From Natronoarchaeum philippinense (GTDB lineage Archaea > Halobacteriota > Halobacteria > Halobacteriales > Natronoarchaeaceae): 64,000 bases of DNA. Positions within the stretch are counted from its first letter, which is position 1; every line of letters starts with the position of its first letter. Of this stretch, positions 48,666 to 62,729 are shown one piece after another. Position numbers and translations under genes: made by a program. The notes under the pieces are model-generated. The model did not search any database. It was not told the DNA's origin and saw only the letters and a list, made by a program, of their open reading frames with translations. Location of the stretch: assembly GCF_900215575.1 (NCBI RefSeq), contig NZ_OBEJ01000003.1, forward strand, positions 186,001 through 250,000, read 5' to 3'.

Positions 48666-50219
48666 ATGACTACGGTTGTTGTTGGATTGGATGGAGCTTC
48701 ATTTGAACTCATCGATCGATGGATCGATGAGGGAGAGCTTCCTGCAATCGAACAGCTCGTCGAAGACGGCGTTTCATCTGATCTCCAGAGTTGCGTTCCC
48801 CCGGTCACGTGTCCCAATTGGCAAGCTTACGCTACGGGAACGAATCCCGGAAAGTTGGGCGTTTTCTGGTGGGAGTACATTGATCGCGAGGAACATGACA
48901 TCTATAGTACCAGCTCCGCTGAGAACTTCAACGGCACTCACTACTGGAACTACCTTGATGGACGCTCTGCTGTCGTGAACCTCCCAACGAGTTATCCACC
49001 GTCTGATATCGATGGGATTCACATCGCTGGTGGTCCCGGCGCCGAGCAAAGCGGGTACACGTCTCCTGCTGAACTCGAGACGGAACTACAGGAGGAGTAC
49101 GACTACAAAGTACATCCTGAGAAACTTGGAGAACTGTCGGTAGATAGCCCGGATAGTGACTGCATCGATGAAATCTACGAGTTAATCGATAATCGATTTG
49201 ATATCGTGGAAGACTTGCTTACTGACGGCGAGTACGAACTCATCCACGTCACCGTCTTTTATCTGAACGTTCTGCATCACTTCTTCTGGGACGACGAGAT
49301 CGTCAAAGCGGCTTGGACTAAAATTGACCAGCGACTCGAACGTCTACTTGAGACTGACGAGATGGATCGGTTGTTTGTAATGTCTGATCACGGTTCTAAC
49401 GAGATTCAGGTTAGCTTCCGTATCAATGCGTGGCTAGAAGAGCAAGGATACCTCGAAACAACCGGTGGAATTGCTGATCTTCTCTATCGATTTGGCCTGA
49501 CACGCGAGCGTGTTCGTCCGATTCTCGCTAACGCCGGGATTGAGTGGTTCATGCGAACCCTCCTTCCCTCCCGGATACAGAACGCCCTCCCTGATGAATC
49601 TGGAGCAGTAACCCAAGGTGCGAAAGCTTCTGTCATTGACTGGGATGCTTCGAAGGCAGTTGCCAGTGGCCAAGGTCCGGTATACGTCCTTTCTGAAGAC
49701 GAAACGGAACGAGAGAAAATCACAGACGAATTGATAAGCAAGCTAGATGGTCTTGAGCACGAGGGCACTGAAATAGTCTCTGCCGTCCCCTCTAGCGAGG
49801 TTTACGATGGCCCAGCTCGTGCCGACGGTCCGGACATTCTCCTTCGGCAGGCTCCTGGCGTTCACATTGAAGGAAAAATCGGCGACGTAGCTCCGTTTGG
49901 AACACCTGATCGATGGCGGGGAGAAAACAAAGAAACTGGACTATTCATTGCGTCTGGACCAGATATCAAAGCCGGTGAACAACTAGGTAGCATGGATATT
50001 ACAGAGATTGCTCCAACTCTTTTACATCTACACGGCCAATCTATCCCCCAGAATCTTGATGACGATCCTCGAGTTGACATCTTTCAGGAAGGAACTGCCC
50101 CGGCTGAGACGGACGTTACGACAGCTCGTGCAGGGAAGATAGACAGTGATCAGGGAGCAACCGCCCACGAGGAGAGTGAAGTCAGTGACCGTCTTGCGGA
50201 CCTCGGCTACCTAGAATGA
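48666..50219 (+). CDS. Type I phosphodiesterase/nucleotide pyrophosphatase-like protein
   Basis: 517 residues, alkaline-phosphatase superfamily. Metal ligands 'VVVGLDGASFELID' and 'LFVMSDHGSNEIQ', with the nucleophile probably the Thr in 'VTCPNWQAYATG', as in NPP enzymes. No signal peptide. It ends with RLADLGYLE, a tail shared with three other proteins of this locus. It may hydrolyse or transfer a phosphodiester on the glycan or its carrier. First gene of a run 48.7-52.9 kb on the plus strand. Confidence 0.8.
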   Translation: MTTVVVGLDGASFELIDRWIDEGELPAIEQLVEDGVSSDLQSCVPPVTCPNWQAYATGTNPGKLGVFWWEYIDREEHDIYSTSSAENFNGTHYWNYLDGRSAVVNLPTSYPPSDIDGIHIAGGPGAEQSGYTSPAELETELQEEYDYKVHPEKLGELSVDSPDSDCIDEIYELIDNRFDIVEDLLTDGEYELIHVTVFYLNVLHHFFWDDEIVKAAWTKIDQRLERLLETDEMDRLFVMSDHGSNEIQVSFRINAWLEEQGYLETTGGIADLLYRFGLTRERVRPILANAGIEWFMRTLLPSRIQNALPDESGAVTQGAKASVIDWDASKAVASGQGPVYVLSEDETEREKITDELISKLDGLEHEGTEIVSAVPSSEVYDGPARADGPDILLRQAPGVHIEGKIGDVAPFGTPDRWRGENKETGLFIASGPDIKAGEQLGSMDITEIAPTLLHLHGQSIPQNLDDDPRVDIFQEGTAPAETDVTTARAGKIDSDQGATAHEESEVSDRLADLGYLE

Positions 50220-50273
50220 CTGCCGGTATCCGTCTGCATCGTTCTGTAAACTGCTTGGTGAACAGCATAAACG

Positions 50274-51422
50274 ATGAGTGAATCCACTGTCGTCTTTTTC
50301 CACATTGCTTCAGGATCTTATGGAGGGGGTTCCCACATGCTGTATCGGCTCCTTTCGTCCATCGATCAGGGGTCGATCAATCCTGTTGTGCTCGCTCAAC
50401 GAGACGACACACTCACCCGAAAGCTAAGGAAAGAGGGTATCCGCGTCGAAATTGTTCCCTTCCGCGGCAGCCTTGACTCGTACAATGAAGCACTTTTGAC
50501 CGGGTCGATCAGCCTGAAAACTCGTTCTGCTTTTCGACTGCTTCAGTTCAACGCTGAAGCTCGATCCGTGCTACGGGACGCAGACGTGATCTGGTGTAAG
50601 AATCTCCGGGCGCTATTGTCGATTATCCCGTATTCGATACTGTCTGATGCACGGCTCCTCTGGAACATCGGGCTTGGAAACCCTTCAACTGGTTTCAGAC
50701 GATATCTCAATACAACTGCAATTCGTGCAACCGACGAAATTCTGATTGAATCCCCCGTTCAGGCAGAACGGATCTTCACGGAGTCTCAGCTTCGGCGTGC
50801 CAGAGATAAATTGACTATTATAAGTAAAGGTATAGACACTGACCGATTTTCTCCATCCCCGAACCCTAAGCAGAATGAATTTCGGGTGGGTATGGCCTCC
50901 TTGATTACTCCGCGCAAACGAGTCGAGGATTTCATATCGGCGGCCACACGCATCAACGAAAGCGATCCAGATATTCGCTTCTCAATTGCCGGCTCACCGC
51001 CCGACGTGGACGACACCGAGTATCTCGATCGTCTTGAACGACTCGTCGCATCGAATGGTATAGAGGACGTGGTTACGTTTGAGGGGTGGGTTGACGATAT
51101 GCCGAGCTTCTACAATTCGATCGATGTGTTTGTTCTCCCATCTCAAAATGAGGGCATACCTGGCTCAGTCAAGGAAGCTATGGCCACTGAGACTCCCGTT
51201 ATCGCCACGAACGTCGGAGGAGTACCGGAGATCGTCGATCACCAAACGACTGGGTATCTCGTCAAGCCGAAATCGCCGTCACAGATTGCAGACTATCTTC
51301 TAGAACTCCGTGAGAACCCCGATCTAATGGACGAAATTGGACAGAATAGTCGCCAACGAATCGTAAATGAATACTCTATGGAAGCATATCTGCAACAGTA
51401 CGAGACAATTCTTCAACGATAA
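50274..51422 (+). CDS. Glycosyltransferase family 4
   Basis: 382 residues, GT-B fold. N-terminal 'HIASGSYGGGSHMLYRLLSS', C-terminal 'GMASLITPRKRVEDFISAA' and the E-x7-E motif region 'SQNEGIPGSVKEAMATETPV'. Second GT4 of the locus, adding another residue to the lipid-linked chain. It is 2 nt from the following sulfatase-like gene, so that pair is co-translated. Confidence 0.87.
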   Translation: MSESTVVFFHIASGSYGGGSHMLYRLLSSIDQGSINPVVLAQRDDTLTRKLRKEGIRVEIVPFRGSLDSYNEALLTGSISLKTRSAFRLLQFNAEARSVLRDADVIWCKNLRALLSIIPYSILSDARLLWNIGLGNPSTGFRRYLNTTAIRATDEILIESPVQAERIFTESQLRRARDKLTIISKGIDTDRFSPSPNPKQNEFRVGMASLITPRKRVEDFISAATRINESDPDIRFSIAGSPPDVDDTEYLDRLERLVASNGIEDVVTFEGWVDDMPSFYNSIDVFVLPSQNEGIPGSVKEAMATETPVIATNVGGVPEIVDHQTTGYLVKPKSPSQIADYLLELRENPDLMDEIGQNSRQRIVNEYSMEAYLQQYETILQR

Positions 51423-51424
51423 GC

Positions 51425-52885
51425 ATGGCTACGACACCCAATATTCTATTTATTGTGATGGATACGGCCCGGGCAAAAACGGTCTATAATGATCCAGAGG
51501 TGATGCCTAACTTCTACCGGATTGCCGAAGATGGTACGCTGTTTACGAACGCCTTCAGCACCGCTCCGTGGACACTACCATCTCACGCCTCGATGTTCTC
51601 TGGTCGGTATACTTCTGACCATGGAACACATGCAGGATCGACATCATTTGACCCAGACTACCCCCCATTAGCTCAACTCCTCAACAGGTCCGGATATCGC
51701 ACTGCTGCATTCTCCAGTAACACATGGGTTGCTCCAGAATTCGGATTTCAACGGGGGTTCGAACACTTCAGCACGTGGTTAAAGATCGTCAACGGCGGCG
51801 TGGATCTCGAAGCGATCGCGAAGGAGAAAAACGGTCTCGTTGAACAAGGGGTGGCAGTCGGCAAGAGTTTGTTCAGGCGCGATGCCCACCGAACGATTCT
51901 CAACGCCCTTTACGCGAAGTTTTTCAAGGAGCGCTATGACTCAGGTGCAAGACTAAAGAATTGGAAGATTCGACGCTGGCTATCTTCTTACGGCAGCGAC
52001 GACCGACCATTCTTTATTTTCGCCAATTATCTGGAGCCGCACTTAGAGTACGATCCGCCTGAGAAATTCCGGCCGAGGTTCTTACCCGAACATCTTGATC
52101 AGTCAGATTTCGACGGCCTCAACCAGAACGCTTGGGAGTATATCTGTGATCAAGTGCAAATGGATAATTCCGATTTTGAACTGCTGGAAGCGTTGTACAA
52201 GGCAGAACTCAATTATCTCGATTATCGGCTCGGAAATCTGTACGACTACCTTGATACGAGTGGATTACTTGAGGAGACCATGATCGTGATTGCTGGAGAT
52301 CATGGCGAAAACATTGGTGATCATGGGCTGATGGATCATCAGTATTGTCTCTACGATTCGTTACTTCATGTTCCGCTGCTCGTTCGGTATCCGGACAAAT
52401 TCCCGGCAGGTAAGCGATTTGATGGTCTCGTTGAGGTCCGGGATCTGTTTCCGACACTACTGGAAGTCGCGGACGCATCAACTGACGATGAAGCCGCTTC
52501 AAGCCGAAGTTTACAGCAAGCGCTTGAGCGTGGGGGACGTGAATACGTGCATGGAGAGTACGCCACTCCCCAACCATCCATAGAAGCACTGGAACAACGT
52601 GTCGGGCAAGTTCCTGCGGACGTGAAAGAGTACGATCGATCGTTGCGATCAGTTAGGTCGGATGAGTGGAAACTTATCGAAGGATTGGATGGAACAATAG
52701 AATTGTATAATATCGATTCAGATCCTAGCGAACAAAATGATGTCTCAAACGATTATTTAGATACCGTTGATGAACTCTCACAGCTATTGCGCAATCGTTT
52801 CTCAGAATTCTCAGATATACCACGTGAATCAGTTCAAATGAACTCATCGACAAAAGATAGACTCGAAGATCTTGGTTATTTGTAA
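51425..52885 (+). CDS. Sulfatase-like protein with Thr nucleophile
   Basis: 486 residues of the alkaline-phosphatase superfamily, sulfatase branch. Metal ligands: D13 in 'FIVMDTARA' and 'IAGDHGENIGDHG'. The formylglycine motif CxPxR is replaced by T50-L-P-S-H54 ('PWTLPSHASMF'), so it cannot be a classical sulfatase. A Thr nucleophile is used by LtaS/phosphoethanolamine-transferase relatives, so a phospho-group transferase or phosphatase is more plausible. No signal peptide. Ends in RLEDLGYL. Downstream partner of the GT4 gene. Strikingly AT-rich near its 3' end. Confidence 0.82.
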   Translation: MATTPNILFIVMDTARAKTVYNDPEVMPNFYRIAEDGTLFTNAFSTAPWTLPSHASMFSGRYTSDHGTHAGSTSFDPDYPPLAQLLNRSGYRTAAFSSNTWVAPEFGFQRGFEHFSTWLKIVNGGVDLEAIAKEKNGLVEQGVAVGKSLFRRDAHRTILNALYAKFFKERYDSGARLKNWKIRRWLSSYGSDDRPFFIFANYLEPHLEYDPPEKFRPRFLPEHLDQSDFDGLNQNAWEYICDQVQMDNSDFELLEALYKAELNYLDYRLGNLYDYLDTSGLLEETMIVIAGDHGENIGDHGLMDHQYCLYDSLLHVPLLVRYPDKFPAGKRFDGLVEVRDLFPTLLEVADASTDDEAASSRSLQQALERGGREYVHGEYATPQPSIEALEQRVGQVPADVKEYDRSLRSVRSDEWKLIEGLDGTIELYNIDSDPSEQNDVSNDYLDTVDELSQLLRNRFSEFSDIPRESVQMNSSTKDRLEDLGYL

Positions 52886-52911
52886 CTAACTAGTAAATAT
52901 AAAAGAACCGT

Positions 52912-53706
52912 CTATTTGTATTTACTCACATCCAGACCTAATATTTTAAATAAGAGAAATATTACGCTGATACAAAGAGCAGCAACGGTTTTTGGACGCA
53001 CCCTAATTCGAGTGGCTATTATCAGATATGATATTGCTTCACGGAAGTTGCCTTCTGTATGTTTTAGACGCCCGTGGCGGTGATATAGTTGGTGAACGAA
53101 CTCACTGAAATGCAGTTTATATTCTGAAATACGCTGCCAGCCAAGCCAGAGAAAATGTAAATCTGCTTCAAATCGTAGTGAGGAGTCCGTAGTAGCTGAT
53201 ACTCCGCTCTCTTGCTTTCGAACCGTTACTATGTCCTCACAGAAACAGACACCAGCATCTTGCGCTGCTTCGAGCATGAAGAGGTGATCCTCTCGTCGCT
53301 GAAGTGATTCTTCAAATTGTACGTCCGTTTGATGGGTATCAAGTAGGATGGAGGGGGTTAGCGACCCGATCTGGCCAACAAATAGCTTCTGAATGAAATC
53401 TCCTGTCGTCATCTGCTGCCCTTCGACACACAGTCCGGCCCCGGTTTCGTGCATTCGCTTTAGCTGCCGTTCGAGTTTGTCGGGTTCCCATAGATCGTCC
53501 GCGTCGAGAAAGGCAACGTATCTCGTGTCGGCCCGCTCAAGGCCGACGTTGCGAGCCCATGCCGGCCCACGCTGGTCTGTGTCTTCCACGACTATCAATT
53601 CTGTCTGAACGGATTGCTGTTTAACCGATTCTTTCGCCTCTAATAACATGTTCTTTGGGGTATGAGTAGAACTATATGGAATAATAACAGAGACGGTAGT
53701 ATTCAT
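52912..53706 (-). CDS. Glycosyltransferase family 2
   Basis: 264 residues, GT-A fold. 'VSVIIPYSSTHTP' start, 'QTELIVVEDTDQRGPAWARN', DxD-type motif in 'YVAFLDADDLWEPDKL', and acceptor-side 'RREDHLFMLEAA'. A hydrophobic C-terminal segment may hold it at the membrane. Start at ATG 53706. Adds a sugar to the growing chain. Confidence 0.85.
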   Translation of the reverse strand: MNTTVSVIIPYSSTHTPKNMLLEAKESVKQQSVQTELIVVEDTDQRGPAWARNVGLERADTRYVAFLDADDLWEPDKLERQLKRMHETGAGLCVEGQQMTTGDFIQKLFVGQIGSLTPSILLDTHQTDVQFEESLQRREDHLFMLEAAQDAGVCFCEDIVTVRKQESGVSATTDSSLRFEADLHFLWLGWQRISEYKLHFSEFVHQLYHRHGRLKHTEGNFREAISYLIIATRIRVRPKTVAALCISVIFLLFKILGLDVSKYK

Positions 53707-53821
53707 GCTCAGGTCTGGGGGCAGCGATAAAATAAACCTGTTCCTCAAGTAACGGCCACACAACGGCTTGATGACATTGGCTTCCTGACTGTCACTCAGA
53801 CTGTAGACGGGATCAGCGTGA

Positions 53822-55123
53822 TCAAGCGTATCCGAGATCTTTCAGCCTACTTTTTACTGTTTCGTCAGGCTCTACCGCGGTATTATCAACTTCATCTAAG
53901 TACTTTCGCTTTTCATGTAGTGTTTCTTCAAAGGAGCTGATGGATTCTCCAACGAATTGTACTCCTGCGTCATGATCTTGGTAGCCGTACCGCCCGTCAG
54001 GAGTGACCATGCCGTACAGCGGACTGTCCCGCTTGTCGAACGTTTCGAGTGCGGCCCCCTCCCGTTTGAATTGCTCCCGGTGAGAGTTCATGAACCCATG
54101 ATACTCGACGAGACGATGACGGGGCTGAAAATCGTCATCAAGTAGATTCTGGCCGCGCCCGCCAACGTCAATTCCGGTGAGTGATCCAATCGTTGCGTGG
54201 ACATCCAGAATACTCACCGGCTCTGATCTGGTAGTATCGGGAATCTCAGAGCCGCTAATAACCAGCGGAATTTGGGTTAGCTCCGGATATAAACCGTATC
54301 CGTGGTTCCAGAGACCATGTTCGCCAAGCATTTCGCCGTGATCTCCGAGAGTAATGACGTAATCAAAATCCTTGTTGAGCTGTTCGTATATCCGTTCATA
54401 AACCGACGATAGATAGATAACTGACTGCTCGTACGCCGAACAGACCTTGGCTGGCTCTGTCACATTCTCGGCGAAAGCTTGGCCGATGGAAACTCGGATG
54501 GGATTTGCTTCATTTGATGGCGGGTAATAGGGCGTGTGCGTTTCCATGATATTCACCGCAAGAAACTCTCCGTTGTTCTGGAAGTTCGTCTTCTGTAGTC
54601 GATCCAGAATAGCTTCTCCCCCTCCATCGGCGTTTGATTTTTTGAAACGGCGGTAGCCGTGTTTTAAACTTCTGAACGTCGGTGAATCAGCGGTTACACA
54701 GTACCACAGTCCATGGAGATACCGGCTTAGACCGCTTGCGTTGATTCTCTGGTCGAACGCATCCCAGTCAACTGAATTTTCAAACTGTGGGTCTAGGTCC
54801 CGCGGCTTAACAAAATGATCGAAACCTCGCTCCCACCCTGGCCATGCAGTGATATTTCCGTTTCCAGTAAAAAACCGAGTTTTATAGCCCTCTTGACGGA
54901 GGTGTTCCGCAAGAACAGTCGTGTCGCACTCTAAGCTCGGCGACTTCGCGTGAGTACCAGCCTCAGACGGATACAGGCCTGTGAATAAAGATGCGTGGGC
55001 AGGTATTGTCCAGTGCGAAGTGGAGTATGCTGTTGTAAATCGTGTACCGTCTAGCCAGCCGAAATAGTCCTCGAAGTAATCATACCTGAGCGTATCCAAG
55101 ACCACTACTGCTACATTCGTCAT
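53822..55123 (-). CDS. Sulfatase-like protein with Thr nucleophile
   Basis: 433 residues. Metal ligands D10 ('AVVVLDTLRYD') and 'ITLGDHGEMLGEHG'. The CxPxR position reads T39-I-P-A-H43 ('HWTIPAHASLF'), so there is no formylglycine precursor. Ends in RLKDLGYA like its relatives. Cytoplasmic by lack of signal. As for 51425, a phosphotransfer or phosphatase role on the glycan is more likely than sulfate hydrolysis. Confidence 0.82.
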   Translation of the reverse strand: MTNVAVVVLDTLRYDYFEDYFGWLDGTRFTTAYSTSHWTIPAHASLFTGLYPSEAGTHAKSPSLECDTTVLAEHLRQEGYKTRFFTGNGNITAWPGWERGFDHFVKPRDLDPQFENSVDWDAFDQRINASGLSRYLHGLWYCVTADSPTFRSLKHGYRRFKKSNADGGGEAILDRLQKTNFQNNGEFLAVNIMETHTPYYPPSNEANPIRVSIGQAFAENVTEPAKVCSAYEQSVIYLSSVYERIYEQLNKDFDYVITLGDHGEMLGEHGLWNHGYGLYPELTQIPLVISGSEIPDTTRSEPVSILDVHATIGSLTGIDVGGRGQNLLDDDFQPRHRLVEYHGFMNSHREQFKREGAALETFDKRDSPLYGMVTPDGRYGYQDHDAGVQFVGESISSFEETLHEKRKYLDEVDNTAVEPDETVKSRLKDLGYA

Positions 55124-55180
55124 TGGATATTCACGACCTCGGCACAGCCCTTGAAGCTATCGTTGCTCTGTCTCGATTGC

Positions 55181-56122
55181 TTATTTGTACCCAAGGTTAT
55201 CGAGCCGTTGCTCAACTATTTCGGAGTCAAGATCTTCACTGTTCACCGGTGGGTCAGCGGTGATCGACCGTCGCTCCGATGATTCGATGACGTGCCACGG
55301 AACTTCACGCAATTCCTCGGCGTGTAACCCGCGAGGATGGCCGTATCCCCGAGCTGGGATTGGTCCAGTTCGCTCTCCGAGAAGATTCCCGTGATCAGAC
55401 GTAATCACGGTTTTACCAGGAATTGACTCCATAACACGCTCTGCGTGAGGGAGCACCACTTCGAGATTTTCACGGTACGCTTTCCAGACTAATTCTTTGT
55501 CCGCCCGATTGTACTTCAAATTCATCCACACTTGTGCGTCAGTGCTTTCTCGTCCTTCGCGGTGGAGATCGATCCCTTTGTGCTCCAGGTCGTCTCCGGT
55601 ATCTCCGATGAACGGGAAGTGTGGCTGCATGAAGTGGACGATCAACCGCTTGTCTGGATACTCTTGGTATATTTCAATCGCGGCGTCGGCGACGTCCTCT
55701 GGGCGCACTGTTTGGTGCTCCGCGTCCCAGTATTCATCGAGGAGATTTTCGACTGCGTGGAACGTGTCCGAGTCAAGCTTGGGCGCGTGAGGGTTCGCTG
55801 TCACGTACACCGTATCGTGGTGTTGCTCTCCTTGGAAGTTATTCTGGAGGAACTCCCAGCTTTCACTCCCCGAGGAACGGCACTTTTCTAGTTCCCCCTC
55901 GATATTGCAGTGTTCGGCATACATGTCGTAGCGACAACCATCCAAAATAATGAGATTGTCCCAATCGCGTCCCGGGATATCAGTTCCACTCGGGTAGTTA
56001 AGCTTATCTTGAAGGTTGATATTCAATTTGGTGCCGAGAGCATTTGCTTCAGACAGCACAAGTGACGGCCGTTTCAAAGCTGTGAGAAGGTTTTCGAGGG
56101 AGTATCGATCCGGGATCTTCAT
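55181..56122 (-). CDS. Sulfatase-like short protein
   Basis: 313 residues, a compact alkaline-phosphatase-superfamily member. 'NLIILDGCRYDMYAEHC' gives the first metal Asp; a Ser-rich 'CRSSGSESWEFLQNNF' occupies the nucleophile position (no CxPxR); 'KTVITSDHGNLLGER' supplies later metal ligands. Ends in RLDNLGYK. This haloarchaeal subtype is often found in glycosylation loci. Substrate unknown. Confidence 0.78.
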   Translation of the reverse strand: MKIPDRYSLENLLTALKRPSLVLSEANALGTKLNINLQDKLNYPSGTDIPGRDWDNLIILDGCRYDMYAEHCNIEGELEKCRSSGSESWEFLQNNFQGEQHHDTVYVTANPHAPKLDSDTFHAVENLLDEYWDAEHQTVRPEDVADAAIEIYQEYPDKRLIVHFMQPHFPFIGDTGDDLEHKGIDLHREGRESTDAQVWMNLKYNRADKELVWKAYRENLEVVLPHAERVMESIPGKTVITSDHGNLLGERTGPIPARGYGHPRGLHAEELREVPWHVIESSERRSITADPPVNSEDLDSEIVEQRLDNLGYK

Positions 56123-56169
56123 TAGTCAGTACTATTTTTGTCCACACCTGAATCCTGTGCTTCTCGTAT

Positions 56170-57654
56170 TTAGTTGATTATCTCTTCTCTGACAAACGAT
56201 TCGTCCTCTTCTTCTATTCCAAACACATATAGTAAGAGTAAGAACGTTACTCCACCAACAGTTCCACCGAACAGTAGTTGTGAGTACCCGGTAAACAACG
56301 GCTTGACCATCACCATCAGGAGCGTTGCTATGATGCAAGCGGCGATCGGCTTAGCAAATTGCCAAGAGTACGGCACGATCTTCTCAAGATACCATACTTG
56401 TATGACTCGAACGACATTAAGAAGTGACAGGCTCGTCATCGTCCCGATAGCAGCCCCGATCAGTCCGAACTGAGTGAGCAAAACATAATTGAGTGCTACG
56501 TTGAGCAGACCGAACGCCCACTGATTAATCATCGTGAGGTACTGATGGTCGGCCATCATTAGCACGTAATTGCTAGGGCCTGCTGTCGCATTCACGAGAT
56601 GACCTAACACGAGCAGCGAAAACAAGGCTGTCGCAGCGGTGACCTCGTCTCCGAACAGCGAAAGCACTGTAGTCCGGTGAACGACGAGAAGGGCTGCACC
56701 AAAGGCCGCAATCGTAAACGCCCAGCGAGTCACAATCTGATACACCGATTCGAGCCGGTCGATTTTTCCATTCGTATATAATTCAGATGCGATAGGTGGG
56801 AACAGCTGATTGATCCCGCTAAGCGGGATCACGATTGCAGTTGCAAGTAGCGCCGCGATATTGTAGATCCCAACATCAGCTGATGTCAAAAAGATACCAA
56901 CCATGAAAACGTCGATCCGTTTGTATAGAAACGTCCCAGCCCGCGAAAACATCAACGGGAACGAGAAGTTGTATAGACTGAACGCAGTTTCTCGTTCTAT
57001 TCCCGTCCGTGCTCTGATGTCCGTCTTAGCGAGAAACACTGTGACTGCAACTGCGAAGACGAGAGCACTCGCCACTGCCAGCGCGACGACAGTTTCAACA
57101 AGCGTATATCCGAGGAGCAGTCCTACCACCGCTGCGAGTAAACGAGCAATGCGAGGGAACACCTTCGACAAGAGTGCGTCGTACTCAACAATCGTCATAC
57201 TCCGAAACACTGCGCCTAGCAGCGTCGTGAGTGTGTAAAATGGGACTGTGATGGCAAGGATTTGGAGGACATCAGGCAACAGATTATTCTGTAGTGTAAG
57301 TTGGTTGATGATTGGTGCGAAGAGATATAGGCAGACCGCAATCAGAACGCTAAACACAAACACAGTCCCGAGAGCGACGCTTACGATCTGATCTCGTCGC
57401 TCGTCGTCAGCGTTTGCGGGAACGTACTTGAGCACTCCCTTGTCCATTCCTGCAGCGGTGATCGTCATTGTCGTAGCTGTAATCAGTCGCGCATATGCGT
57501 AGATTCCATACAGTGCCGTGCCAAGCGCCTGGATGAGAACCCAATTAAGCAGGAAGCCTGCGGCGTTCGTAATCACCTTTGCAAGTACGAATATAGATCC
57601 ACCTCTGAGAATTTCTCGTAGCGAGGTGTTCACTGACGAAGAATCGCTCGACAT
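56170..57654 (-). CDS. Polysaccharide flippase (Wzx/MOP superfamily)
   Basis: 494 residues with 12-14 membrane helices. 'GGSIFVLAKVITNAAGFLLN' at the N-terminus and 'RIDVFMVGIFLTSADVGIYN' in the middle are typical of Wzx/oligosaccharide flippases. It would move the lipid-linked glycan across the cytoplasmic membrane. 35 bp from the Wzy-like gene, suggesting shared transcription. Confidence 0.87.
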   Translation of the reverse strand: MSSDSSSVNTSLREILRGGSIFVLAKVITNAAGFLLNWVLIQALGTALYGIYAYARLITATTMTITAAGMDKGVLKYVPANADDERRDQIVSVALGTVFVFSVLIAVCLYLFAPIINQLTLQNNLLPDVLQILAITVPFYTLTTLLGAVFRSMTIVEYDALLSKVFPRIARLLAAVVGLLLGYTLVETVVALAVASALVFAVAVTVFLAKTDIRARTGIERETAFSLYNFSFPLMFSRAGTFLYKRIDVFMVGIFLTSADVGIYNIAALLATAIVIPLSGINQLFPPIASELYTNGKIDRLESVYQIVTRWAFTIAAFGAALLVVHRTTVLSLFGDEVTAATALFSLLVLGHLVNATAGPSNYVLMMADHQYLTMINQWAFGLLNVALNYVLLTQFGLIGAAIGTMTSLSLLNVVRVIQVWYLEKIVPYSWQFAKPIAACIIATLLMVMVKPLFTGYSQLLFGGTVGGVTFLLLLYVFGIEEEDESFVREEIIN

Positions 57655-57689
57655 GGCGATTTCGTGCCGAGCAATCCACCTAACGCTTG

Positions 57690-59564
57690 CTATTCAGTGT
57701 CGGCTCGTCCACCTCGTGAGACAACACTCGTGTCGTGATACTTCGCGCCGACAATTATGCCGTTCAAGAGCCAGAGCACGCTGTAAGCGACTGCACTATG
57801 ATAAATCGATGTCCAGAATGCGTACGCGTGGAATGCAAGCAACCCAAACGCGAACGACCACCAGAGAAACGCATCGCTCGCCTCGGACTCTTGTGATAAC
57901 TGGATCGCAATTATGATCGGGAGAGTGACTGAGATAACGAATGCGAGAGCACCAAGAATGCCGACCTCGGCAAGGTGTGCTAAGTAGGTGTTGTGGATTA
58001 CTCTTGGCTTATCAAACCCATATGATTCTGAAACCATCACGAAATTCCAGCCACCGATCCCAAAGAGCGGGTACTGAGCCCCGAGATCAACCGCTGCGGC
58101 GTACTGTTGGAGGCGTATCAGAAGAGTGTTCGACTGGAATCCAGGAATGCCTTGGAAGAGTTCCAGAATTTCTTTCTGAAGTCCTGTTGGTGAGGAATCA
58201 GCTCCTATCTGATTTCCTCCACCTTCCGATGAGCCGTTGGTTGGCCCAGTTGAGGATGAGCCGTTGGTTGGCCCAGTTGAGGATGAGCCGTTGGTTGGCC
58301 CAGTTGAGGATGAGCCGTTGGTTGGCCCAGTTGAGGATGAGCCGTTGGTTGGCCCAGTTGAGGATGAGCCGTTGGTTGGCCCAGTTGAGGATGAGCCGTT
58401 GGTTGGCCCAGTTGAGGATGAGCCGTTGGTTGGCGAACCGTCCGACTGATTCGTCGTCCCAGCACCCACTCCCGCGGAACCGCTCTGCCGACCGGTTGGG
58501 CTTTTTTCTCTACCCAACATAAACAACAGGAGTGTCAAAGCGATCCCTGAAACTGTTCCGTACACTGATGTCTTAAACCGCCTATTGCCTCTGACAAATA
58601 ACGAATATCCACTGAATATGATGATCAAGCCAAATACGAGAATCATTGCACCGAGCCCAGCATCAGTATCACTGATCTGCACCATTACTATAGTGAATGG
58701 AGGAAAAGCCAGTGCGGCGAATTTTAGCAGCCGAGTACGTTCTTCAGCTATTGTGACGGCAACTGCGAGTGGCGTTACGATAAGTAATAGCGAAATTAGA
58801 ATTCGCGACGATCCGCTGAATCCCCCGGCAAAGAGTCCAGACGTAAATTCGACAAACCAGAGGTCAAATTCTCCAAGAGGGCTGCCTGTAGCATCACCGA
58901 GTCGCGTAAATCCGTATGCCTTCCCGCGATGCGATTCCGCGATCGCTACGACGGTGTGCCCGGCGGTAGCCACGAGGAGCGGGTATATCGCGTCAAGTAC
59001 TGAAACCCATCGGATGAGTAGAGCCGCGAAGATGAAGTAGAATAAATATCTTGTAACTGACAATGAGAAGGCGATGGCGTTCACAGATGATGGGCCGTTA
59101 GAAATTGCGGCTGATATATATGACCAAAAAACAAAAAATGACAGTGCTCCAGCCGTGTACTTGCTATACGCCCCGAAACTGAGGTCATGTCGTTCCACAT
59201 AGAGCAGTCCAACAATACAGGGGAAGATCACAAGATCTGCCAGCAGGATTCCGAACTCCGCGCCTCCCGGTCCAGAAAGTACCGGCACATCAGCGCTGTA
59301 CGTTGTTAAAACGACGGCCGCGCTAACGATACCTTCTCCAATACTCCCGTTGATAATAATGAAAGCGAAGTATGCGCACATCACGATCCCAACCGAGACG
59401 AGAAGTGGGATCGGCGAGAACACTGCAACTGCTGGCGCAAGAATATTAAGCAGTACGACCAGTGCCACAGAAGAAACAATGATGTCCTTTGTCGATACTG
59501 TGATTTGACTTGGTAATAGGTCTTGGCCTATTATTGATCTTGACCCGGAAAGTGCAGATTTCAT
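57690..59564 (-). CDS. O-antigen polymerase/ligase-like protein with NGS-repeat loop
   Basis: 624 residues, about 12 membrane helices, Wzy/WaaL-like ('QYAAAVDLGAQYPLFGIGGW', then 'RVIHNTYLAHLAEVGILGAL', the conserved C-terminal loop motifs). A loop between helices carries eight copies of TNGSS, encoded by a 27-bp minisatellite (58228-58434); each unit holds an N-G-S glycosylation sequon. It would polymerise or ligate glycan units outside the membrane. A TATA box sits at 59585-59594. Confidence 0.82.
   Translation of the reverse strand: MKSALSGSRSIIGQDLLPSQITVSTKDIIVSSVALVVLLNILAPAVAVFSPIPLLVSVGIVMCAYFAFIIINGSIGEGIVSAAVVLTTYSADVPVLSGPGGAEFGILLADLVIFPCIVGLLYVERHDLSFGAYSKYTAGALSFFVFWSYISAAISNGPSSVNAIAFSLSVTRYLFYFIFAALLIRWVSVLDAIYPLLVATAGHTVVAIAESHRGKAYGFTRLGDATGSPLGEFDLWFVEFTSGLFAGGFSGSSRILISLLLIVTPLAVAVTIAEERTRLLKFAALAFPPFTIVMVQISDTDAGLGAMILVFGLIIIFSGYSLFVRGNRRFKTSVYGTVSGIALTLLLFMLGREKSPTGRQSGSAGVGAGTTNQSDGSPTNGSSSTGPTNGSSSTGPTNGSSSTGPTNGSSSTGPTNGSSSTGPTNGSSSTGPTNGSSSTGPTNGSSEGGGNQIGADSSPTGLQKEILELFQGIPGFQSNTLLIRLQQYAAAVDLGAQYPLFGIGGWNFVMVSESYGFDKPRVIHNTYLAHLAEVGILGALAFVISVTLPIIIAIQLSQESEASDAFLWWSFAFGLLAFHAYAFWTSIYHSAVAYSVLWLLNGIIVGAKYHDTSVVSRGGRADTE
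58228..58434. repeat. 27-bp minisatellite, about 7.7 copies
   Basis: Unit begins GATGAGCCGTTGGTTGGCCC. Copies appear identical. Encodes (on the minus strand) TNGSSSTGP repeats in the Wzy-like protein. Likely length-variable by slippage in steps of nine residues. Confidence 0.9.
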
Positions 59565-59624: not shown

Positions 59625-61829
59625 TCATTCTTGCTGTCTCACTGCGTATACCGCCACTTCTCGATTTTCGCTAATGAATATTTGTTGATGGTTCGTGTCT
59701 GTTGACTCTCCGCCGTTGGTACTCTGCCCACCAATTGCCGATGATTCCACTTCACCAGTGACTACGATATATCCTATCTTCCTTTCGGACTGTTCGTACC
59801 ACTGATCCAGACTTTTGCTCGCCCAGAAGTCGTCGTAGTTTCGCTCGGCGTACCCATACGTCTCAGCCTCCCCATTGACCACGTAATTGAACATCCTGTT
59901 CTCATCCCACTCGCTCAGCACGTAGTTTTCAGGATACGTCCGGTTTGTACTCTCCGCATGCTCGTCCATCGCCACCGCAGCCTGATACTCGGCATCGCTG
60001 TAGGTCACTTGGCTGACCAGCGAGGGAACTAACACCATTCCCAGCCCGGCGAACAACACGAAGATACCGACCAGATAAGATAACTGTGCCTGGTCGTCTG
60101 GCACCCCAACCGAGATCGAGCGCCGTCCGTCAGCTGTCCCCGATCCAAGTAACGATCCTGTATCCGGGCCTTCCTCTTGAAACGGAAGCGGCGTCCGAGC
60201 CAAATCGACCGCCGACAGCACGTACACCAGCCCGAGGCCCCCCAGCACCGAGACGAACAGCGCTAACTGCCCGGTAAACCGCATCTGAATTCCTGCGAGC
60301 GCGGTGAAGTACCAGGTACACACCGCCATCAACAGCCACCCGGGTTCGTAGCGCCGATACGCGACCCACGTCGCCCAGCCCAACGGCACCAGCGCGAGGT
60401 AGAATGCAAGCCCGGTCTGGGTCAGTGGCCCGAAGACGAACCCGTATTCGGCAGCGAACAGCGAGTTCGCCTCGGTCATCCCGTCACGGAAGAACAGATC
60501 GTCGACACGAGTTTGCAACTGCGCTACGTCCTCGGGGCGCAGTCGTCGGAACAACCACAGCCCCGCGCCGGCCACGCCCGCTTCGAGCACGACGAGCGCG
60601 CTGAGCGGCCAGTCGAAGCGACGCCAGACCTCGCCCAGCACGAGCACCGCGATCGTCCCGCCGAACACCAGAAGCGGCGTGTACGCGGCGAACGATTCCT
60701 GCCAACCCCAGCGCGCGTGCAGTAGGTACGAAATCACGCTTCCCAGTCCGACGCCGACAACGAGCGGAATGTTCGCCACTGCCGGCGACACGTCCGCACG
60801 GGCGTCCATCAGCGCGCGGAGACCGATATACCCCGCGAGCGGGATGAACACGAGCGGTGACCCGCCCCACGCGTGCGCCGAGAAGCCGACGCCGATCCCG
60901 AGCGCTACAGCAGTGACCCACGTCCAGCCTGCGCTCAGGTGTGCCCGAATTGCGGCGTCGTTCGACGCGTTCACGTCGCGTCGTTCTTGGAGATCGACCG
61001 CCAACCACGCCAGCGACAGCACCGTCACGCCGAGCCAGAAATACTGGTGGATCTGATGATCTATGAAGCCAATCCCCGTATAGACGGCGTGGGCCGGAAT
61101 CGTCGCCAGCACGGCGACCGAGGCGATGCCCACACGTGGATCGTCGGTCAGCACGGTCGCGAGCTTGTACAGCACGACGCCGAGCGCGAGCGTGGCGACG
61201 ACGGGCAACCACGCCGCGACGGTCGTCGCCGCCTGCTGTCCACCGCCTAGCAACTCGGCGACGAACCAGTTCGTCGCGTGCGAGAGCGGTCGGGTCCCCT
61301 CCATCCCTTCGGGAAGGGTCGCAATCACGCCCCAGTCGGTCGGCCCCGACGATCGGGTGAGCAACTCCTCCATCCAGTAGCGAAAGAAGTAGGGGTCGTT
61401 CCCCGGCGAAATGACGTGCTCGTCGCGCATCACCGACCCGTACGCGGTGATTCGCATCACGAGCAAAAAGACGAGCGCGCCGGCGAGGCCGGCCATCGCC
61501 CGGGGGTCGACGGAAACGTCCAGATTGAACTCGAAGCTCTCCCAGAACGAATCACCCTGTTCGACCGTCTCGGCGTCCCCGGACACCGCGGCGACGACGG
61601 CGTCCCGATCGGCAAGCCGGTACTCGCCGTCGGCCTTCTCGACGATTCCCTGAGAGACGAGCTCACCGAACGTTCCCGAGTCTGCAGGAATGTCCTCGAA
61701 CGTCCACGTTTCGCGCTCGGCGTCGACATCGAGAATCGCTTCGAGCGTCGCTTCGGCGTCGGGTCGATCATCGAGGAACGAGTGGACGGCCTCACGGTCC
61801 GTCTGGGACTGGCCGGCCTCCGGTGGCAT
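59625..61829 (-). CDS. AglB/STT3-like oligosaccharyltransferase, degenerate WWDYG
   Basis: 734 residues. Residues 1-105 look like a winged-helix-type soluble domain ('TWTFEDIPADSGTFGELVSQ'). About 12 membrane helices follow, with STT3 loop motifs 'NDPYFFRYWME' and 'IGFIDHQIHQYFW' (DHQ where DHH is common). The C-terminal soluble domain should carry WWDYG for sequon binding but reads S-E640-W-D-E-N644. Overall fold fits AglB (transfer of lipid-linked glycan to Asn), but the acceptor may differ. The last ~160 codons are AT-richer than the rest (25 G+C in 59641-59700 against 44 in 61201-61260). TATA-like CTATAAC is 25 nt upstream. Confidence 0.78.
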   Translation of the reverse strand: MPPEAGQSQTDREAVHSFLDDRPDAEATLEAILDVDAERETWTFEDIPADSGTFGELVSQGIVEKADGEYRLADRDAVVAAVSGDAETVEQGDSFWESFEFNLDVSVDPRAMAGLAGALVFLLVMRITAYGSVMRDEHVISPGNDPYFFRYWMEELLTRSSGPTDWGVIATLPEGMEGTRPLSHATNWFVAELLGGGQQAATTVAAWLPVVATLALGVVLYKLATVLTDDPRVGIASVAVLATIPAHAVYTGIGFIDHQIHQYFWLGVTVLSLAWLAVDLQERRDVNASNDAAIRAHLSAGWTWVTAVALGIGVGFSAHAWGGSPLVFIPLAGYIGLRALMDARADVSPAVANIPLVVGVGLGSVISYLLHARWGWQESFAAYTPLLVFGGTIAVLVLGEVWRRFDWPLSALVVLEAGVAGAGLWLFRRLRPEDVAQLQTRVDDLFFRDGMTEANSLFAAEYGFVFGPLTQTGLAFYLALVPLGWATWVAYRRYEPGWLLMAVCTWYFTALAGIQMRFTGQLALFVSVLGGLGLVYVLSAVDLARTPLPFQEEGPDTGSLLGSGTADGRRSISVGVPDDQAQLSYLVGIFVLFAGLGMVLVPSLVSQVTYSDAEYQAAVAMDEHAESTNRTYPENYVLSEWDENRMFNYVVNGEAETYGYAERNYDDFWASKSLDQWYEQSERKIGYIVVTGEVESSAIGGQSTNGGESTDTNHQQIFISENREVAVYAVRQQE

Positions 61830-62100: not shown

Positions 62101-62367
62101 ATGCCCGGCGCAGAGAAACGTACAGTCGGCGAACGCGGTCAAGTGACCCTTCCGAAAGAGTTCCGCGAGGAATTTGGTCTCCACGGCGGCGACGAAGTCA
62201 CGATCCGAAAGGAATCAGGACAGATCGTCATCGAGAAACCGGTTTCACGTGAGGACCTCGCAGAGGGATACCGTCGTCGTGCCGAACAGCACCAAGCGCT
62301 GGCCGACGAGATGGCTGATGTCTCTCAGGAAGCTAACGACACCCTCGGCGACGTGCCGGAGTGGTAG
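62101..62367 (+). CDS. AbrB/MazE-type antitoxin
   Basis: 88 residues with a SpoVT/AbrB swapped-hairpin domain: 'RTVGERGQVTLPKEFREEFG' and 'GDEVTIRKESGQIVIEKPV'. An acidic, helical tail would neutralise the toxin. The stop lies just before or overlaps the start of the MazF-like gene. Expected to autorepress the operon. Confidence 0.85.
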   Translation: MPGAEKRTVGERGQVTLPKEFREEFGLHGGDEVTIRKESGQIVIEKPVSREDLAEGYRRRAEQHQALADEMADVSQEANDTLGDVPEW

Positions 62368-62375
62368 TGGTTTCG

Positions 62376-62729
62376 ATGCACGTTCACCGTGGCGATATTG
62401 CCATTGTCGAGCTAGACCCAACGCAAGGATCTGAGCAGCGTGGTACGCGCCCCTGTCTCGTTGTCCAGAACGATGTTGGAAACGAGAACGCCCCGACGAC
62501 CATTGTCGTCCCGTTCACGACCTCTTTCGGTGATGAACTCTATCCGTTCGAAGTGCTGGTTCCTGCCGACGAGTGTGCGCTTCGAGAGGATTCAGTCGCT
62601 GTCTGTAGTCAGATTCGGACTGTCTCGGTTGATCATCGCGTCTCCGATGTGATTGGCTCCATCCCGGATGACCGGATGGCAGAGGTCGATACCGCCCTCG
62701 AGTACAGTCTCGGGCTTCGTGATGTGTAG
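62376..62729 (+). CDS. MazF/PemK-type toxin
   Basis: 117 residues: 'HRGDIAIVELDPTQGSEQRG' with 'RPCLVVQNDVGNENAPTTIV', then 'SQIRTVSVDHRVSDVIGSI', the endoribonuclease fold of MazF/PemK. It would cleave mRNA when freed from the upstream AbrB-type partner. ATG 62376 gives the usual short N-terminus; GTG codons at 62361 and 62367 are alternatives that overlap the antitoxin stop. Confidence 0.85.
   Translation: MHVHRGDIAIVELDPTQGSEQRGTRPCLVVQNDVGNENAPTTIVVPFTTSFGDELYPFEVLVPADECALREDSVAVCSQIRTVSVDHRVSDVIGSIPDDRMAEVDTALEYSLGLRDV

Follow-up and report, generated by a model that had tools for sequence, protein, structure and literature searches.

The locus lies on the minus strand near one end of a 64,000 nt stretch of the Natronoarchaeum philippinense genome (NZ_OBEJ01000003.1, positions 186,001-250,000; hereafter the window). 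It comprises a gene for a putative glycan ligase/polymerase carrying an in-frame array of 27-bp repeats, an adjoining flippase-like gene, and an upstream gene for a divergent AglB/STT3-like protein. The features are as follows, with positions counted from the first base of the window.

56170..57654 (-), Wzx/flippase-like gene (PF01943), adjoining the ligase gene
57690..59564 (-), putative Wzy_C/WaaL-fold glycan ligase-polymerase gene, 624 amino acids (PF04932; 7TPG top in both fold searches)
57936..58142 (-), Wzy_C domain match, residues 475-543
57993..57995 (-), H524, on WaaL His313 in the alignment
58113..58115 (-), R484, on WaaL Arg265 in the alignment
58173..58514 (-), disordered loop, predicted to be extracytoplasmic, residues 351-464, pLDDT under 50 in the model, containing the array
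58228..58434 (-), array of 7.7 identical 27-bp copies, (TNGSSSTGP)7 plus a partial TNGSS, eight N-G-S sequons
58443..58451 (-), extra N-Q-S sequon, residue 372, just upstream of the array
58509..58583 (-), predicted transmembrane helix (residues 328-352) ahead of the loop; RGNRRFK lies at the end predicted to be inside
59625..61829 (-), gene upstream of the ligase gene, for a divergent AglB/STT3-like protein (TIGR04154, 93.9 bits, below the cut-off of 450)

An in-frame array of identical 27-bp copies

Tandem Repeats Finder (TRF) reports a period of 27, 7.7 copies, a 100% match and no indels for positions 58228-58434, and the period-27 identity is exact across the 207 bases. The exact run at this period measures 180, compared with a longest run of 9 in 200 single-base shuffles of the 2-kb stretch around the array. 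The repeats run head to tail and in frame within the 624-residue open reading frame (ORF), as in a coding tandem repeat, and give seven full TNGSSSTGP units (residues 379-441) followed by the partial TNGSS. The original prediction had described near-perfect repeats encoding TNGSSSTGP with an N-G-S sequon in every unit; the copies turn out to be identical, and the sequon is present throughout, including the partial unit. A further N-G-S sequon of the same protein is found at residue 72. Since the copies are identical also at third codon positions, their expansion or homogenisation looks recent.

All seven copies of the exact 27-mer in the N. philippinense genome are located inside the array and, with no mismatch allowed, the 27-mer has no match in 390 other genomes of the class; a dispersed repeat family was set aside on these grounds. 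A degenerate founder unit in the flank was also considered and rejected, as the neighbouring 27-mer (encoding TTNQSDGSP), aligned in register, shares 10 of its 27 bases with the unit, and the antisense ORF that runs through the array (57941-58522, plus strand) has no support of its own. Searches of phages and plasmids with the repeat peptide gave no match, although repeats of this kind may be masked by the low-complexity filter; a 36-base repeat pattern had no match in viral_contigs. In a TRF survey covering 464 kb, made up of the window and a 400-kb sample of the genome (20 stretches, 20 kb each), the array has the most copies among the 70 rows obtained and the second highest score, the top score belonging to a 156-bp repeat present in 2.3 copies.

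Predicted fold and membrane side of the repeat-bearing protein

The protein had been proposed to be a Wzy-like glycan polymerase/ligase, and both family and fold searches support this assignment. Its PF04932 (Wzy_C) score of 35.2 bits passes the Pfam gathering cut-off of 31.7, and a profile built from the C-terminal parts of 20 homologues has the O-antigen ligase WaaL (7TPG) as its best sequence match among solved structures, albeit with a weak E-value of 0.0029. An AlphaFold2 model built from nine input sequences (mean pLDDT 57.3, pTM 0.64) returns 7TPG first in Foldseek (E 3e-4, the sole match under 1e-3), and in VIA-align 7TPG has a Z of 21.7 over 347 residues with an rmsd of 4.4, the next entries (FtsW) reaching Z 13.3. 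According to PMC10920833, WaaL belongs to CAZy GT121, has 12 helices and carries a long loop on the periplasmic side in which several residues are conserved; Arg265 binds undecaprenyl diphosphate and His313 is proposed to activate the acceptor. The archaeal R484 and H524 fall on these two positions and are invariant in two alignments of homologues (A1 and A3). R254, in a G-x-x-R motif, is kept in each of the eight A3 rows (nine in total) that cover the position and would be a candidate counterpart of Arg191, the first diphosphate-binding arginine of WaaL. The likeness to WaaL lies in the fold and in the equivalents of Arg265 and His313, whereas identity in the structural alignment is 12%, about 14 helices can be read from the archaeal model compared with the 12 stated for WaaL, and a long disordered repeat stretch precedes the second arginine in the archaeal protein. 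Together, sequence and model support the view that the ORF at 57690-59564 encodes a WaaL/Wzy_C-type enzyme with putative ligase/polymerase activity.

In the model, helix 328-352 is followed by the unstructured residues 351-464 and then by the helix with R484, and the array residues have block mean pLDDT values of 21-29 and no secondary structure. The array would hence open the same large extracytoplasmic loop that holds the WaaL-equivalent Arg and His. The basic segments EERTRLLK, after helix 248-273, and RGNRRFK, before helix 328-352, fit the inner side of the membrane, which places the array on the outer side together with the predicted catalytic residues. With R484 and H524 on Arg265 and His313, and the array in that loop, the repeat loop very probably faces the outside of the cell, with its N-X-S/T sequons within reach of an oligosaccharyltransferase. 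A cytoplasmic loop, one of the outcomes that would have contradicted the original prediction, is therefore not what the WaaL alignment, the model and the fold match predict.

The corresponding loop in haloarchaeal homologues

Among 43 homologues scoring over 80 bits (17 weaker proteins were set aside) the loop before the arginine varies between 13 and 132 residues, with a median of 59. The loop set used for repeat detection was derived from 98 ORFs, of which 56 were distinct, and consisted of 46 representatives at 80% identity over the 110 residues after the arginine. To enter the set, an ORF had to have an arginine no more than 4 residues from where it was expected and a hydrophobic segment upstream. 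Loop cores were defined as the loop minus its last six residues before the arginine and minus any leading hydrophobic stretch. The 32 representatives with a core of at least 30 residues were tested for repeats and the 14 with a core under 30 were excluded.

Internal repeats at a shuffle p of ≤0.01 are present in eight of the 32 loops, i.e. in the window protein and seven homologues (an earlier version based on the 43 proteins gave repeats in 7/30 loops of at least 40 residues). For six of the eight, TRF gives main DNA periods of 27, 63, 78, 39, 42 and 48, all multiples of 3, and in the remaining two the repeats are visible in the protein alone. Judged by eye, the units of the eight loops are unlike one another: TNGSSSTGP occupies the loop in N. 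philippinense, whereas other lineages have unlike units at the same place. Every unit carries a sequon in three of the eight, namely the window protein, L141 (period 11, N-A-T in the unit) and a homologue from Halostella pelagica with a 63-bp repeat in 2.4 copies and a 21-residue unit, each with N-V-S. The latter gene was recovered twice:

L017:1504-3267 (-), Halostella pelagica homologue, the same gene as L095:3657-5420 (+)

In the other five of the seven repeat-bearing homologues, some or all units lack a sequon; four (L020, L032, L065 and L072) have repeats without any sequon and in L029 the sequons are present in the second copy and absent from the first. In L010, the closest homologue, the 56-residue loop core lacks sequons, and one N-F-S lies among the six final loop residues that were trimmed away. 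On a tree of the homologues, which was a quick one with several long branches and without a shuffled-label control, no fewer than eight changes of the repeat label are required to account for the eight repeat-bearing rows. These changes, and the occurrence of unlike repeats in several homologues, suggest that this loop site is prone to or tolerant of repeats, and that the sequon is not a constant part of them. In two near relatives, L096 and L151, both N-N-S-S sequon pairs are kept while the surrounding residues differ; this observation concerns few sequences.

We consider it probable that the array represents a coding minisatellite, in frame, within a disordered extracytoplasmic spacer. The spacer, with which the large catalytic loop of this haloarchaeal ligase/polymerase of the WaaL fold begins, would gain repeats and may be glycosylated by default. 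The array itself, its frame, the identity of its copies, the variation in loop length and the unlike repeats in homologues can be read directly from the sequences, and the fold, the catalytic Arg and His and the outer location are supported by alignment and model. Units would multiply by slippage or unequal crossing-over, and since the unit length, 27, is divisible by 3 and the loop lacks structure, changes in copy number would be tolerated and leave the enzyme working. Being outside and accessible, some of the N-G-S sites would then probably be glycosylated by the oligosaccharyltransferase of the cell. Most simply, the sequon in each unit would be a by-product of copying a unit rich in N, S, T and G.

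The recent look of the array and the confinement of its exact unit to this genome among those searched would also agree with an instability that has no role, i.e. a recent expansion by the same mechanism but of no use to the cell, the length of which may even be wrong in the assembly (the species is represented by one assembly). We regard this as possible though doubtful, given that unlike repeats at the same loop in homologues point to a permissive or useful place.

Sequons, possible glycan occupancy and gene neighbourhood

The spacer reading has to accommodate the number of sequons in the homologous loops. With the window protein left out, 31 loop cores contain 31 sequons, where shuffling within each loop gives 21.1 ± 3.8 (p 0.0086); the mirror motif occurs 23 times in the same cores. 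When all repeat loops are removed from this set, 20 sequons remain compared with 14.9 in the shuffles (p 0.08). In the earlier set the sequons numbered 30, with 21.1 expected (p 0.016), and on removal of L017 they numbered 26, with 19.2 expected (p 0.05). The number of loops that have at least one sequon does not exceed expectation, at 16/31 where the shuffles give 14.9 (p 0.40, again without the window protein). Based on loop composition, the chance of a sequon in a nine-residue unit is approximately 0.105, so that at least three of eight units with a sequon would arise by chance with a probability of 0.15, and at least two of seven, without the window protein, with one of 0.38. The excess is modest and a weak signal at most, and the related sequences are not fully independent.

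We counted this excess against the spacer reading, together with two further proteins from the sampled 400 kb of the same genome:

L108:2434-3066 (+), PF00127 protein with a linker of repeated GGNQSG (N-Q-S)
L110:10675-11208 (-), PF00127 protein with a linker of repeated N-Q-T units

Both belong to the plastocyanin/azurin family, and we take them to be halocyanin-like. They resemble the ligase in having short in-frame sequon repeats in a linker and a secretion-type N-terminus, and differ from it in that the linker precedes a small copper-binding domain and that the DNA copies are less alike than those of the ligase array. Strict protein tandem repeats were found in 4/446 picked ORFs, i.e. the window protein, L110, L119 and L124 (the set took an overlapping ORF in place of the L108 protein); sequons occur throughout the repeats in the window protein and L110, with one in L119 and none in L124. 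Sequon-bearing linkers hence recur in the N. philippinense genome.

The genome also encodes an oligosaccharyltransferase with a full score elsewhere:

G000:C1:223608-226193, full-score archaeal STT3/AglB (L158, L159), 794 bits compared with the cut-off of 450

For Haloferax volcanii, one glycoproteomic data set comprises 39 N-glycoproteins (PMC8241124). The table in which all data sets are combined assigns two N-glycosites to AglB, which like the ligase is a membrane enzyme of the glycosylation pathway bearing N-glycan sites. The sites of AglB are confirmed, while the eight repeated sequons of the ligase array are predicted ones. The same source describes S-layer residues N274 and N279, five residues apart, as both modified on one peptide (21 residues), which shares the string SSTGPT with the TNGSSSTGP repeat (PMC8241124). 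The full-score STT3, the precedent of AglB and the S-layer, and the sequon linkers in the genome together make occupancy of the N-G-S sites in the ligase loop plausible.

These same observations, the presence of eight sequons in an accessible loop and the modest sequon excess in homologues could be taken to mean that the array is a selected glycan brush, in which each N-G-S is glycosylated beside the active-site loop, and access, stability or activity is adjusted through the number of copies. We find this unlikely: a sequon in every unit of just three of the eight repeat loops is within what chance delivers, with or without the window protein, loops with any sequon match the shuffles in number, the loop core of the closest homologue has none, 14 of the 46 representatives have loop cores under 30 residues, and five of the seven other homologues with unlike repeats in this loop do without a sequon in every unit. 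Of the original interpretation, in which a glycan polymerase/ligase presents a loop that is a target of its own pathway and adjustable in steps of nine residues, the WaaL/Wzy_C kind of the enzyme and, by prediction, the outside position of the loop have stood, glycosylation of the loop by the cell's own pathway is plausible, with AglB as a precedent, and the tuning belongs to the reading we find unlikely. A wider proposal, that haloarchaea repeatedly evolve sequon minisatellites in extracytoplasmic linkers, with the one in the WaaL-type ligase forming a copy-number-adjustable N-glycan brush by the active-site loop and hence a self-referential, tunable control of surface-glycan assembly, appears very unlikely to us.

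The repeat could instead carry short O-linked glycans on its Ser and Thr (five of nine residues), the N-sequons being incidental, which is compatible with a spacer. Homologous loop cores consist of 28.5% Ser plus Thr (window left out), and PMC8241124 mentions O-linked disaccharides on S-layer glycoproteins, both in Hbt. salinarum and in Hfx. volcanii, yet we judge O-glycosylation of the array quite improbable.

Under the preferred spacer reading, the locus provides a comparative case of a membrane glycosyltransferase loop with unlike in-frame repeats in several haloarchaeal lineages and, if the sites are occupied, of a glycan-assembly enzyme that its own pathway would modify by way of a quickly evolving element. 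Judged by title or the start of the abstract, none of the papers among the matches listed describes repeats in an archaeal Wzy/WaaL loop.

The ligase gene is patchily distributed. Its C-terminal part is matched in 27/292 genomes of the class and the homologue profile in 76/381 (both at 1e-6); G001, the second genome of the genus, gave no match under the thresholds applied, a single-protein search of genome_contigs confirmed no relative, and a whole-protein search of plasmids gave one weak match, in Haladaptatus. A flippase-like gene adjoins the homologue also in Halococcus thailandensis (40% identical to the product of 56170..57654) and in Halostella pelagica (29%), the latter having in addition a 313-residue neighbour at 48% identity. 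The eight genes at 48666-59564, which include flippase-like, glycosyltransferase, sulfatase/phosphodiesterase-family and ligase genes, have a GC content of 0.47-0.52, and the two genes measured beyond them (59.6-64 kb) 0.63-0.66. We infer that the neighbourhood forms an exchangeable island for glycan assembly and that it contains a Wzx/Wzy-like pair.

The STT3-like protein encoded upstream is matched in 8/9 genomes of the family, the own genome included, and is kept in G001 (74%), where the relative has an AglB_L1 domain match; the 20 kb beside the G001 gene differ and include asparagine synthase and another flippase-like gene. The divergent STT3-like protein beside the island is thus a second one, besides the full-score STT3 elsewhere in the genome. 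Finally, a PemK/MazF-like toxin gene (62361-62729, plus strand; PF02452, 108 bits) is located between the STT3-like gene and aglM.
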